Shown: positions 9,980-49,642 of the stretch, in pieces | Layout of the letters: each line of letters starts with the position of its first letter | Position numbering within the stretch: the first letter of the stretch is position 1 | Assembly: GCF_024972755.1 (NCBI RefSeq) | Contig: NZ_CP087724.1 | Location: 2,232,001-2,296,000, forward strand | DNA: 64,000 bases | Direction of reading: 5' to 3' | From: Halanaeroarchaeum sp. HSR-CO | Lineage (GTDB): Archaea > Halobacteriota > Halobacteria > Halobacteriales > Halobacteriaceae | The notes under the pieces: model-generated | What the model saw: only the letters and a program-made list of their open reading frames with translations | Databases searched by the model: none | What the model was told of the DNA's origin: nothing | Position numbers and translations under genes: made by a program

Positions 9980-10717
9980 ATGAACCCGAGCCGGGTCGAC
10001 TTCGTCGTCGACCTCCTGTACGGCGTGGCGATCTTCGTCGCCATCGGGCTCATCTTGCTGGTCGGAACCGGCGTCGGTATTGCGTTCGGACTGGGCGTGC
10101 TGGTCTCCTACGTCATCCACATCGGCTGGAAGATGGCACGGTTCGACCCCGACTGGATGACCACCGAGGTCGCCGAACGCGTCGAAGAAACGGTCACGAA
10201 GGAAGTCGGCGAGGCCGTCAGCAAGGAGGTCGGCGATACCGTCAAAGAAGAAGTCGGTGAGACGGTCAGCAAAGAGGTCGAAGAGACCGTCAGCAAGGAA
10301 GTCGGTGCGACGGTCAAAGAAGAGGTCGGCGAGGCCGTCAAAGAAGAAGTCGGCGAAGCCGTCAGCAAGGAGGTCGGTGCAACCGTCAAAGAAGAAGTCG
10401 GCGAGACGGTCAGCAAGGAGGTCGAAGAGACCGTGAGCAAAGAGGTCAAGACAGTCAGCGAAGAGGTCGAGAAGACGGTCAGCGATACGGTCCACAAGGA
10501 GATGGACGAAGTGGCCGAGAAGGTCGGCGAGACCGTCAAAGAGGAAGTGACCGAGGACGTCGGCAAGGCCGTCGGCGTCGAGGTAGAACGGGCGGTCGGC
10601 GACGAAGTCGAGAAAGCGGTGGGCAAAGAGGTCGAGAAGACGGTCGGCAGGGAGATCGACGAGGTCATCGAGAAAGTCGACGAGATCAGCGAGAACGAGG
10701 ACGATGACGAGGAATAG
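9980..10717 (+). CDS. membrane-anchored protein with Val-every-fourth-residue repeats
   Basis: Roughly 245 residues. An N-terminal hydrophobic hairpin (residues ~7-45) is followed by ~190 residues in which a Val, rarely Ile or Met, recurs every fourth position: VGET VSKE VEET VSKE VGAT VKEE and so on, about 45 times with only a few phase breaks. The segments between are Glu/Lys/Gly/Thr/Ser, and the tail is DDDEE. The anchor plus a long charged rod is visible; the function is not. GGAGGG 6 bases before 9980 favours this start. An ATG at 9923 (also with a TGGAGG) would add 19 residues. Confidence 0.75.
   Translation: MNPSRVDFVVDLLYGVAIFVAIGLILLVGTGVGIAFGLGVLVSYVIHIGWKMARFDPDWMTTEVAERVEETVTKEVGEAVSKEVGDTVKEEVGETVSKEVEETVSKEVGATVKEEVGEAVKEEVGEAVSKEVGATVKEEVGETVSKEVEETVSKEVKTVSEEVEKTVSDTVHKEMDEVAEKVGETVKEEVTEDVGKAVGVEVERAVGDEVEKAVGKEVEKTVGREIDEVIEKVDEISENEDDDEE
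10195..10450 (+). repeat. degenerate 12/24-bp coding tandem repeat
   Basis: Within the preceding gene the DNA repeats units like GTCAGCAAGGAGGTC and GTCAAAGAAGAAGTC in tandem. The two longest near-identical copies encode VGETVSKEVEETVSKEV about 132 bases apart. Third-position differences between copies show that the protein pattern is kept while the DNA drifts. Expect length polymorphism by slippage. Confidence 0.8.
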
Positions 10718-14614: not shown

Positions 14615-15237
14615 TCGGTGGGTCAGCAACCTCCAATTTCGCTAGATTCCTCACGTGCCGCTTCGTCGCGGTACCCATTCCGCGCCGCGTGAACGACGTC
14701 GCGGCTCGTTTCGACCTATCCCGGGTTGAGTCACGCAACGTCCAAATTCCTCATCTGGACCGTATACCCCCACCGATTGTACAGCAGATGCCCAGCGACC
14801 GACGAAGCCGCCACCAACAACGAGTGCTGATTCTATCGTAGTGTGATGGGCTCAGGCTTCCACCGAACGAGACGGTTCACTCATCGCGAACGTAGTGAGC
14901 GATGAGGACGTTTTTGGTGTGCTCACCGAGCGTAGCTCGGTGGCACTACCAGACCGCGAAGCGGTCTGGCTTGCAGTCAGAAGCACCGCTTCTGACGACA
15001 TCCAGCAGAAGCTTCGCTTCTGCGCGAGAGATTTTTGCGAGATGGGGTCCCACAGCGAGCGCTAGAGAGCGAGGAAACCCATCTCGTAAAACGGTCCAAT
15101 GGGACCGTCGAAGCATCGCTTCGCGAAGCTTCTGGCTCCCACTTCTTCCTCACTACGTTCGTCAGAAGTGGGACCGTCGAAACGTCGCTACGCGACGTTT
15201 CTGGCTCCCATTTTCTCCTCACTTCGTTCGTCGAAAA
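14615..15237. other. gene-free region with hairpin array and tRNA-Pro 3'-end repeats
   Basis: About 620 bases without a gene I can support. Positions 14615-14880 show nothing distinctive. From 14881 to 15237 there is a chain of short inverted repeats and two tandem 69-bp units described separately. All of it lies in the 3' direction of the minus-strand tRNA-Pro gene. Confidence 0.7.
14881..15023. repeat. array of five short inverted repeats, four with trinucleotide loops
   Basis: Five successive hairpins: 14881-14905 (TCATCGC / GCGATGA around an 11-base loop), 14924-14942 (8-bp stem, GTA loop), 14949-14969 (9-bp stem, GAA loop), 14976-14996 (9-bp stem, ACC loop) and 15005-15023 (8-bp stem, TTC loop). 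The last four are perfect and are all closed by GC-NNN-GC. Stem sequences differ from one another, so this is a repeat of shape, not of sequence. Confidence 0.75.
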
Positions 15238-15249
15238 TGGGACCGTCGA
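15100..15249 (-). repeat. two tandem 69-bp units, each ending in a copy of the tRNA-Pro 3' end
   Basis: TGGGACCGTCGA (plus strand), the last 12 bases of tRNA-Pro(GGG) including the discriminator, recurs at 15238, 15169 and 15100, exactly 69 bases apart. Each unit also has a 9-bp inverted repeat (15207-15215 with 15233-15241; 15138-15146 with 15164-15172) and a 10-position hairpin with a 3-base loop (15179-15201, perfect; 15110-15132, one A-A mismatch). Between the units three stem changes in the first inverted repeat and one in the second are compensated. Confidence 0.8.
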
Positions 15250-15310
15250 GATTCGAACTCGAGTCCGACGGACCCCATCCGCCGAGGATACCAAGCTACC
15301 CCACGGTCCC
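15238..15310 (-). tRNA. tRNA-Pro (anticodon GGG)
   Basis: The minus strand folds as a full cloverleaf. The acceptor is GGGACCG/CGGTCCC with discriminator A. The D-arm contains AGCTTGGTA. The anticodon stem is GGCGG/CCGTC with loop ATGGGGT (anticodon GGG). The variable loop has 4 bases, and the T-arm is TCGAG-TTCGAAT-CTCGA. CCA is not encoded. No intron is seen. Confidence 0.93.
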
Positions 15311-48055: not shown

Positions 48056-48928
48056 TCACTCCGTGAGCGTCAGGCAGCCGAGTGATGCGAACATCGCTAC
48101 CTCAGTTCGCACCGTCTCGCTCCCCTGGTCTGGGATCGTGTTCAGCCAGGCGTCGAATCCCGCTGGGGCGTCGGTGGTGGGGTCGCCCTCGCCGGCCGTC
48201 GCGGAGCCGGTCGCGGCCCCGATATCCCGGACGTCGACGTCCAGAATGTCGGGGAGGCCACGACCCGGTGCTCCGAAGGCGACGGTCAGCCCGTCGGCGG
48301 CGACGCGCTCTACGAGTCCCGCCAGCGAGGACACCGTTACGGGTGTCCCGTGACGGGACGTGGCGACGCGAAAGCCTGCGTCGGGACGGTCGAGGGCATC
48401 CCGGAGGTTCGTCCGAGTGACGACGAACCCCGGAAGGGGTTCGTCGACCAGCTTCGCACGAACCGGTCGTCGCGAAGAGACCCTGATGGTCACGCGCTCC
48501 CCCTCCTCGACCGCCATCGATGGCGGGACGTGGAGGGAGATCGGGTGTTGCAGACCGCAATTGACCCGAACGCGCCCTTCAGATCCGACCTGGGTCACTA
48601 TTCCCTGTCGTAACGACCCCGAACCGCTCGATTCGGAGCCGGTCCATGCTGAAACGCGAAGCGGCGGCAGGATGCCGGCGTACTCCAGTTCGTCCCGCGT
48701 GCCGAAGGCCTCCTTTCGGAGGTATGGCGGCGTCGCGGCGTACCGCAGCACGGTCTCGACGAACCCGCCACCCCATCGACGCTCGCCGTCGGAATCGTCG
48801 AAGATTCCGAGGCGGTCGGCCCGGAAGACCGCGGCCGCACGGGCCACGTAGCCGAGTTTGCGAGTTGCCTCGCGTTTGTCCTCGGCTTCCCGGACGAGGG
48901 ATGACGGCACGAGCACACTGCGCGTCAT
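48056..48928 (-). CDS. SPOUT-family RNA methyltransferase (Methyltrn_RNA_3 / DUF171 type)
   Basis: 290 aa, first gene of the S10 cluster. Central segment ETVLRYAATPPYLRKEAFGT, an inserted OB-like domain (QGIVTQVGSEGRVRVNCGLQ), then VAFGAPGRGLPDIL, which corresponds to the SAM-binding knot (GxPxxGL), and FDAWLNTIPDQGSETVRTEV. Members of this family sit before rpl3 in many archaea and are predicted to modify rRNA; the exact target is unknown to me. Confidence 0.82.
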   Translation of the reverse strand: MTRSVLVPSSLVREAEDKREATRKLGYVARAAAVFRADRLGIFDDSDGERRWGGGFVETVLRYAATPPYLRKEAFGTRDELEYAGILPPLRVSAWTGSESSGSGSLRQGIVTQVGSEGRVRVNCGLQHPISLHVPPSMAVEEGERVTIRVSSRRPVRAKLVDEPLPGFVVTRTNLRDALDRPDAGFRVATSRHGTPVTVSSLAGLVERVAADGLTVAFGAPGRGLPDILDVDVRDIGAATGSATAGEGDPTTDAPAGFDAWLNTIPDQGSETVRTEVAMFASLGCLTLTE

Positions 48929-49138: not shown

Positions 49139-49209
49139 GCGCTGGTAGTGTAGTGGTATCACGTGACCTTGCCATGGTCACAACCTGGGTTCAAATCCCA
49201 GCCAGCGCA
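49139..49209 (+). tRNA. tRNA-Gly (anticodon GCC)
   Basis: Complete cloverleaf: acceptor GCGCTGG/CCAGCGC with discriminator A, D-arm GTGTAGTGGTATCAC, anticodon stem TGACC/GGTCA with loop TTGCCAT (GCC), variable bases CAACC, and T-arm CTGGG-TTCAAAT-CCCAG. CCA is not encoded. Its 3' end is the origin of the tandem repeats that follow. Confidence 0.95.
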
Positions 49210-49642
49210 GTTCTGTCGAACCACATCCGCGAGCAATGGCTTTGCCATTGCGAGCAATGCTGGTGAGACGAAATCGCTCTGGGATTTGAACTCAGCAAGT
49301 CGCAGCTCCCGAGCGAAGCGAGGGTGACCGTCTGATTTCGGTTCAAATTCCGATAGACTCGCTTCGCTCGTCTATCGACGTCCCGTTCGCCAAGGGCTCA
49401 CGGGACTCCCAGCCAGCGCATTTCTGTCGAACCACATCCGCGAGCGTTGGCCATGCCAACGCGAGCTATCGGGGTGAGACGAAATCGCTCTGGGATTTGA
49501 ACCCTGCAAGTCGCAGCCCGCGCAACCGACCGGAGGGAGGTGAGCAGGACCGTCTTGCTCTGGTTCAAATTCCGATAGACTCGCTTCGCTCGTCTATCGA
49601 CGTCCCGTTCGCCAGGGGCTCACGGGACTCCCAGCCAGCGCA
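49197..49642 (+). repeat. two tandem 211/222-bp units ending in copies of the tRNA-Gly 3' end
   Basis: CCCAGCCAGCGCA, the last 13 bases of tRNA-Gly, recurs ending at 49209, 49420 and 49642. Between copies the units share long blocks: TTCTGTCGAACCACATCCGC after each of the first two ends, GACGAAATCGCTCTGGGATT, and GGTTCAAATTCCGATAGACT through the next 3' end. The middle 50 bases differ. Each unit has a copy of the T-arm in inverted orientation (49279-49291 and 49490-49504, the latter a 15-base exact match) and a degenerate direct copy. Three hairpins per unit are described separately. Confidence 0.88.
49233..49628 (+). repeat. hairpins inside the tRNA-Gly tail units
   Basis: Hairpin 1: 49233-49251 (GCAATGGC-TTT-GCCATTGC) and its counterpart 49444-49462 (GCGTTGGC-CAT-GCCAACGC); both are perfect, and the two differing positions of the stem are both compensated. 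Hairpin 2: 49351-49377 and 49573-49599 (CGATAGAC / GTCTATCG), identical. Hairpin 3: 49380-49406 and 49602-49628 (GTCCCGT / ACGGGAC), identical stems. The first has the same GC-NNN-GC closing as the hairpins beside tRNA-Pro. Confidence 0.8.

Follow-up and report, generated by a model that had tools for sequence, protein, structure and literature searches.

Tandem structured units ending in tRNA 3'-end copies behind haloarchaeal tRNA genes, and their resemblance to enterobacterial RtT

The tRNA-Gly(GCC) gene in the window (the whole 64,000-nucleotide stretch of DNA that was analysed) is followed by two tandem, structured units, both of which close with the 3' end of that tRNA, copied exactly. 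Comparable units stand behind more than half of the tRNA genes of this genome. The family is real and widespread, and it is new as an archaeal, genome-wide form of the arrangement represented by RtT RNA (Rfam RF00391), until now an oddity known from a few enterobacterial tRNA operons. We propose, with a probability of roughly one half, that the array is the haloarchaeal counterpart of RtT: a series of tandem structured units in the tRNA 3' trailer region, putatively co-transcribed, cut and renewed by strand switching. The initial annotation had described the 13-nt 3' end of tRNA-Gly (CCCAGCCAGCGCA) as recurring twice downstream, and tandem units of 211 and 222 bp terminating in it. Both descriptions proved accurate, and a repeat search found long blocks of 116-118 nt in the two units, at 211 and 222 bp spacing and 87-88% identity. 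The features of this locus, and those of the second array in the window, are as follows.

49139..49209, plus strand: tRNA-Gly(GCC), the parent gene and source of the copied 3' end (ARAGORN; Rfam RF00005, 66.7 bits)
49210..49420, plus strand: unit 1, 211 bp (tandem repeat blocks)
49210..49274, plus strand: unit 1 hairpin 1, abutting the tRNA 3' end (array fold, sequence)
within 49210..49274, plus strand: inner stem of unit 1 hairpin 1, GCAATGGC/GCCATTGC, with tandem GA/GA on its flanks
49275..49295, plus strand: unit 1 antisense copy of the tRNA-Gly acceptor/T-arm strand (CGCT--CTGGGATTTGAACTCA)
49296..49339, plus strand: type B hairpin 2 module of unit 1, with relatives behind other tRNAs of the same genome
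49340..49351, plus strand: sense T-loop copy of unit 1, GGTTCAAATTCC, which pairs with the antisense arm (inverted repeats, fold)
49352..49407, plus strand: two extra hairpins within the closing stem of unit 1, the type E addition (fold)
49408..49420, plus strand: copy 1 of the tRNA 3' end (exact match)
49421..49642, plus strand: unit 2, 222 bp, with the layout of unit 1 (tandem blocks)
49486..49504, plus strand: unit 2 antisense copy of the tRNA-Gly acceptor/T-arm strand (CGCT--CTGGGATTTGAACCC; alignment score 34.5)
49492..49575, plus strand: unit 2 antisense T-arm, type B hairpin 2 and sense T-arm (matches to positions 383-466 of the array query)
49630..49642, plus strand: copy 2 of the tRNA 3' end (exact match)
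15238..15310, minus strand: tRNA-Pro(GGG) (ARAGORN)
15100..15237, minus strand: two 69-bp units behind tRNA-Pro, ending in TCGACGGTCCCA

The first hairpin is perfect in both units, as had been recognised earlier: GCAATGGC-TTT-GCCATTGC in unit 1 and GCGTTGGC-CAT-GCCAACGC in unit 2 differ at two pairs (A-T to G-C and A-T to T-A). The antisense copy of the tRNA T-arm and acceptor strand that each unit carries (49275-49295 and 49486-49504) had been missed; the arm of unit 1 scores 32.5 when aligned to the reverse complement of the last 24 nt of the tRNA. An insert similar to the type E addition of unit 1 is present in the last unit behind tRNA-Gly(TCC), and segment 49492..49575 of unit 2 has matches in many haloarchaeal genomes, those in its own genome lying at tRNA loci. 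Within the array Rfam recognised the tRNA and no other family. The 433-nt array folds 7.15 SD below its dinucleotide shuffles, which together with the genome-wide counts given below demonstrates that the array is not a chance arrangement.

The haloarchaeal genome of 2.79 Mb has 44 tRNA genes, counted as its Rfam tRNA matches plus tRNA-Pro(GGG) of the window. The 900 bp downstream of each gene were scanned with its own last 12 nt as query, allowing at most one mismatch. Copies of the 3' end were found downstream of 25 of the 44 genes, against a single hit in the upstream control and a single hit in the reverse-complement control. They define 50 units of 69-274 bp, one to six per tRNA, which end in the last 12-24 nt of their own tRNA. 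The initial annotation had proposed a genome-wide family and had pointed to a second tRNA of the window with such units. That tRNA is tRNA-Pro(GGG), and the proposal is borne out by the counts above, by the units found at 17 of 30 orthologous tRNA-Gly(GCC) loci of relatives, and by the 33 anticodon types represented in the pooled set. The largest array encountered here is that of tRNA-Gly(TCC) (locus L015), with six 3'-end copies detected within 0.9 kb downstream; its first three units are identical, at 111 bp each. A further element, CACCTTTTTACTCGTCGGGTTCGC..GCGAACCCTCCTCGCAAAAATCTGGACCAAAAACGTCC, which is a long hairpin containing runs of T and of A, is common to several array loci. It is located in unit 2 of L004 and in the tails of L025 and L063 in the same genome, and in congener G001 in the tails of tRNA-Arg(cct), tRNA-Lys(ttt) and tRNA-Ala(cgc).

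A typical unit leads from hairpin 1, placed immediately behind the tRNA, through the antisense T-arm/acceptor copy and an exchangeable hairpin 2 module to the sense copy of the tRNA 3' end. The sense copy extends from approximately tRNA position 53 to the discriminator, the antisense arm often lacks 2-4 nt at the acceptor/T-stem junction, and the hairpin 2 modules fall into several recurring families. The copies lack CCA, which rules out retro-copying from mature tRNA. Antisense and sense arms form the closing stem of the unit, and in 190 of 207 units 12 or more of the final 21 nt pair back into the unit. Pooling gave 248 units, among which type A is enriched because many loci were fetched by that pattern; the pooled units are mutually related, so that P values do not have the meaning they would have for independent samples. 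The antisense arm matches its own tRNA more closely than it does other tRNAs, with a median rank of 9% among 43 types (P = 2e-38 over the 248 related units) and 46% in the reverse-complement control, although the single best tRNA was its own in only 11 of the 50 own-genome units, where 1.1 were expected. Folding z-scores relative to mononucleotide shuffles have a median of -4.3 for units versus 0.07 for tRNA upstream regions.

Of the two strands, the tRNA-sense strand is the preferred single strand, and it is rich in tandem GA/GA pairs. Across the pooled 248 units, 2x2 internal loops on this strand were GA/GA in 286 cases and TC/TC in 19, and the sense strand was the more stable one in 206 units. 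Covariation is evident in type A, where 24 equal-length units from behind many tRNAs display double changes at nine pairs (score 0.203 versus 0.089 when shuffled). No G-U excess was detected on the sense strand of the pooled units (568 vs 654). Selection on RNA would predict such an enrichment, so this result counts against it, and selection on a G-U tolerant RNA stem is unsupported. Column 26-36 of the type A inner stem frequently swaps C-G for G-C with no common G-U intermediate. Depletion of T runs within the arrays was not seen.

A scan of GTDB with a strict type A pattern gave at least 129 copies, with the first 120 contigs listed. Among the matches listed, contig titles name haloarchaea, except for one labelled only Euryarchaeota, and 120 of 129 copies follow a same-strand tRNA at under 1 kb (background 6.8%); the locus edge truncates seven of the nine remaining copies. 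Among the listed copies, 97 carry the 3' decamer of the tRNA that they follow, and these lie at a median distance of 50 nt from it. Within the same order the strict pattern occurs in 22 genomes out of about 83; none of about 311 other genomes of the phylum has it, and 30 tRNA loci sampled outside the haloarchaea in that phylum had no units. In an unselected sample of relatives, units were present at 7 of 26 loci. As a motif, the type A module stands behind 29 tRNA types. It was not found in 2.9 million viral contigs, a collection whose haloviral share is unquantified; a general hairpin motif, scanned separately against viral contigs, is not haloarchaea-specific and therefore makes a weak positive control. 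The tRNA-Gly(GCC) array has no match among phage records, and the phage, plasmid and viral collections contained no units outside haloarchaeal replicons. Of the plasmid matches, one falls on a secondary replicon, at a tRNA-Gly locus whose ribosomal-protein synteny is conserved, and the other is short and has no detected tRNA. No earlier description of haloarchaeal tRNA 3' repeat units was found in the open-access literature.

The RtT RNAs of Escherichia coli tyrT/tyrV and proK, like the haloarchaeal units, follow tRNA genes and share their strand. RtT units measure 168-178 bp, and their last stretch repeats the 3' end of the local tRNA exactly, with tyrT and proK each having their own. The exact proK 3'-end copy in the RtT behind proK indicates that RtT, too, is tRNA-specific, as the haloarchaeal units are. 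At the E. coli K-12 proK locus (L284), the 168-bp unit begins with the proK Rho-independent terminator, which is repeated after the unit, and a second, truncated RtT follows. When the tyrT/tyrV units were folded, GGGGAAGGAT paired with ATCCTTCCCC in an antisense/sense closing stem like that of the haloarchaeal units, and the units end in the tRNA-Tyr 3' end. Tandem copies and tandem GA pairs are common to both systems; the GA motif has been noted in RtT by others (PMC7657543), and rtT RNA has a 175-bp VNTR that is variable in Salmonella Paratyphi A (PMC2658671).

Unlike RtT, the haloarchaeal modules comprise several unrelated families behind more than half of one genome's tRNAs, and the haloarchaeal unit opens with a GA hairpin of its own; the 3'-end copies include CCA in E. 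coli RtT but not in haloarchaea. With the RtT covariance model, none of 21 haloarchaeal genomes had a match above the gathering cut-off of 45 bits, the matches below it lie away from tRNAs, and the model had no match in eight array loci. By sequence, therefore, the haloarchaeal units are not members of the RtT family, while their anatomy and location are the same: they lie directly downstream of a same-strand tRNA (25/44 own tRNAs; 120/129 type A copies among the matches listed), end in a copy of their own tRNA 3' end, close with an antisense/sense stem (190/207 units) and have tandem GA on the tRNA-sense strand (286 GA/GA vs 19 TC/TC).

On the RtT-like reading, the array would be transcribed as a long pre-tRNA trailer, and tRNase Z would cut at the end of each tRNA-end copy to free RNAs of approximately 70-270 nt. 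In Haloferax volcanii, tRNA-like elements are cut by tRNase Z (PMC4946936). Such haloarchaeal elements resemble the units in having tRNA-like ends as candidate RNA processing signals; they are tRNA-like structures beside other RNAs, whereas the units copy only the last 12-24 nt and pair them with an antisense arm. Strand switching from one tRNA locus to another during replication, at the T-loop core TTCAAATC/GATTTGAA, a shared octamer, may be what creates new units, after which inverted-repeat templating could make the antisense arm match; tandem duplication together with T-loop strand switching would multiply the units. Switching of this kind would account for a sense copy that starts at the T-loop and runs on into the local acceptor strand, and for modules that travel between tRNAs. 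Two questions are raised: by what route a module takes on the 3' end, with its complement, of any tRNA behind which it lands, and whether haloarchaeal tRNA transcripts include a trailer RNA family. More tentatively, at less than even odds, haloarchaea and enterobacteria may hold a cross-domain class of hairpin modules that hop between tRNA genes, acquire the local 3' end and its complement, and yield trailer RNAs, through convergence or a shared mechanism.

Units are gained, lost, swapped and decayed. Orthologous tRNAs of congener G001 have units of different number and kind. Within one family, L050 has an extra tRNA-proximal unit relative to L042 and L046, and at the unit-free locus L033 flank positions 1-31, directly behind the tRNA, match the flank that follows the 120-bp unit of its relative L049 (positions 121-151) with 90% identity. 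Neighbouring units of tRNA-Met and tRNA-Leu(tag) have hairpin 1 and the antisense arm in common and differ in hairpin 2, which shows that modules are exchanged at the T-loop core. Where the sense copy has diverged, the antisense arm fits the intact tRNA in 31 cases and the diverged copy in 17 (P = 0.06). Units thus appear to decay rather than to be maintained pair by pair, and the idea that antisense arms compensate for decayed copies is unsupported.

The alternative that survives best, which we regard as somewhat unlikely, is that the units are selfish repeats at the DNA level: non-autonomous palindromes, REP- or attC-like, that a recombinase or transposase inserts at tRNA 3' ends by way of a single-strand hairpin, with no role as RNA. 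It remains a serious rival because the C-G/G-C swaps lacking a G-U intermediate and the absence of a G-U excess fit DNA templating and speak against RNA-pairing selection alone. The recurrence of hairpin 2 modules behind many tRNAs, decay without compensation, and the unit-free locus that runs straight into a post-unit flank likewise fit such repeats, and the strand preference also fits one folded DNA strand. Integron attC cassettes and REP-BIME palindromes are arrays of imperfect palindromes with strand-specific folding and resemble the units in this respect; a generic integrase search identified no cassette genes or integron integrase, and the units are tied to tRNA 3' ends. Against selfish repeats, no dedicated enzyme was found, units were never seen in the viral contigs and seldom away from tRNAs, and a simple element would not come with arms that suit the individual tRNA.

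Simple tandem duplication of the 3' end of the tRNA together with its flank, moulded by slippage and gene conversion and with neither function nor dedicated mobility, is improbable as the whole explanation. It would fit the three identical units behind tRNA-Gly(TCC), the Salmonella rtT VNTR (PMC2658671), and the post-tRNA flank, which is repeated after the last copy above the 95th percentile in 18% of arrays where 5% is expected. Duplication creates neither antisense arms nor the same hairpin 2 modules behind different tRNAs, and the tRNA-Met and tRNA-Leu(tag) neighbours, with identical hairpin 1 and different hairpin 2, demonstrate module exchange. Less probable still is that the 3'-end copies are decoy attachment sites diverting provirus integrases from the tRNA gene. 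The copies do span the T-loop to the discriminator, and a Haloquadratum provirus integrated with a 22-nt tRNA duplication (PMC3119063), but decoys leave the antisense arms, hairpins and tandem GA motifs unexplained, and no provirus was inserted in an array among the loci inspected.

Integrative elements and proviruses at tRNA 3' ends, like the units, duplicate the tRNA 3' end at their far junction; they span kilobases and carry an integrase, whereas the units measure 69-274 bp and contain no recognised gene. The serial-integration origin that the initial annotation implied, unlike its genome-wide family, is not supported: exact duplication of a tRNA 3' end is a hallmark of integration, with haloarchaeal cases known (PMC3119063), but scars of serial integration and deletion are the least credible source here, as all spacers have one fixed two-hairpin layout with an antisense tRNA arm and no recognised gene remnants, the nearest of nine tyrosine integrase matches in the genome is about 8.5 kb from an array tRNA and none is linked to a duplicated tRNA end, the units do not align to integrative element ends, and phage and viral collections (haloviral share unquantified) gave no homologues. 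For annotators, a duplicated tRNA 3' end need not mean an integrated virus.

Two further observations concern the window itself. A strong Rfam match to the L4-Archaeoglobi ribosomal protein leader (48483-48582, minus strand, 76.6 bits) sits within a 290-aa reading frame (48056-48928, minus strand) that adjoins the ribosomal L3/L4 cluster. An annotated RNA methyltransferase gene occupies the corresponding position beside L3 in Natronorubrum bangense. Either the Rfam family captures coding sequence or the leader overlaps the reading frame. Degenerate 21/24-bp tandem repeats at 10181-10704 are probably coding.
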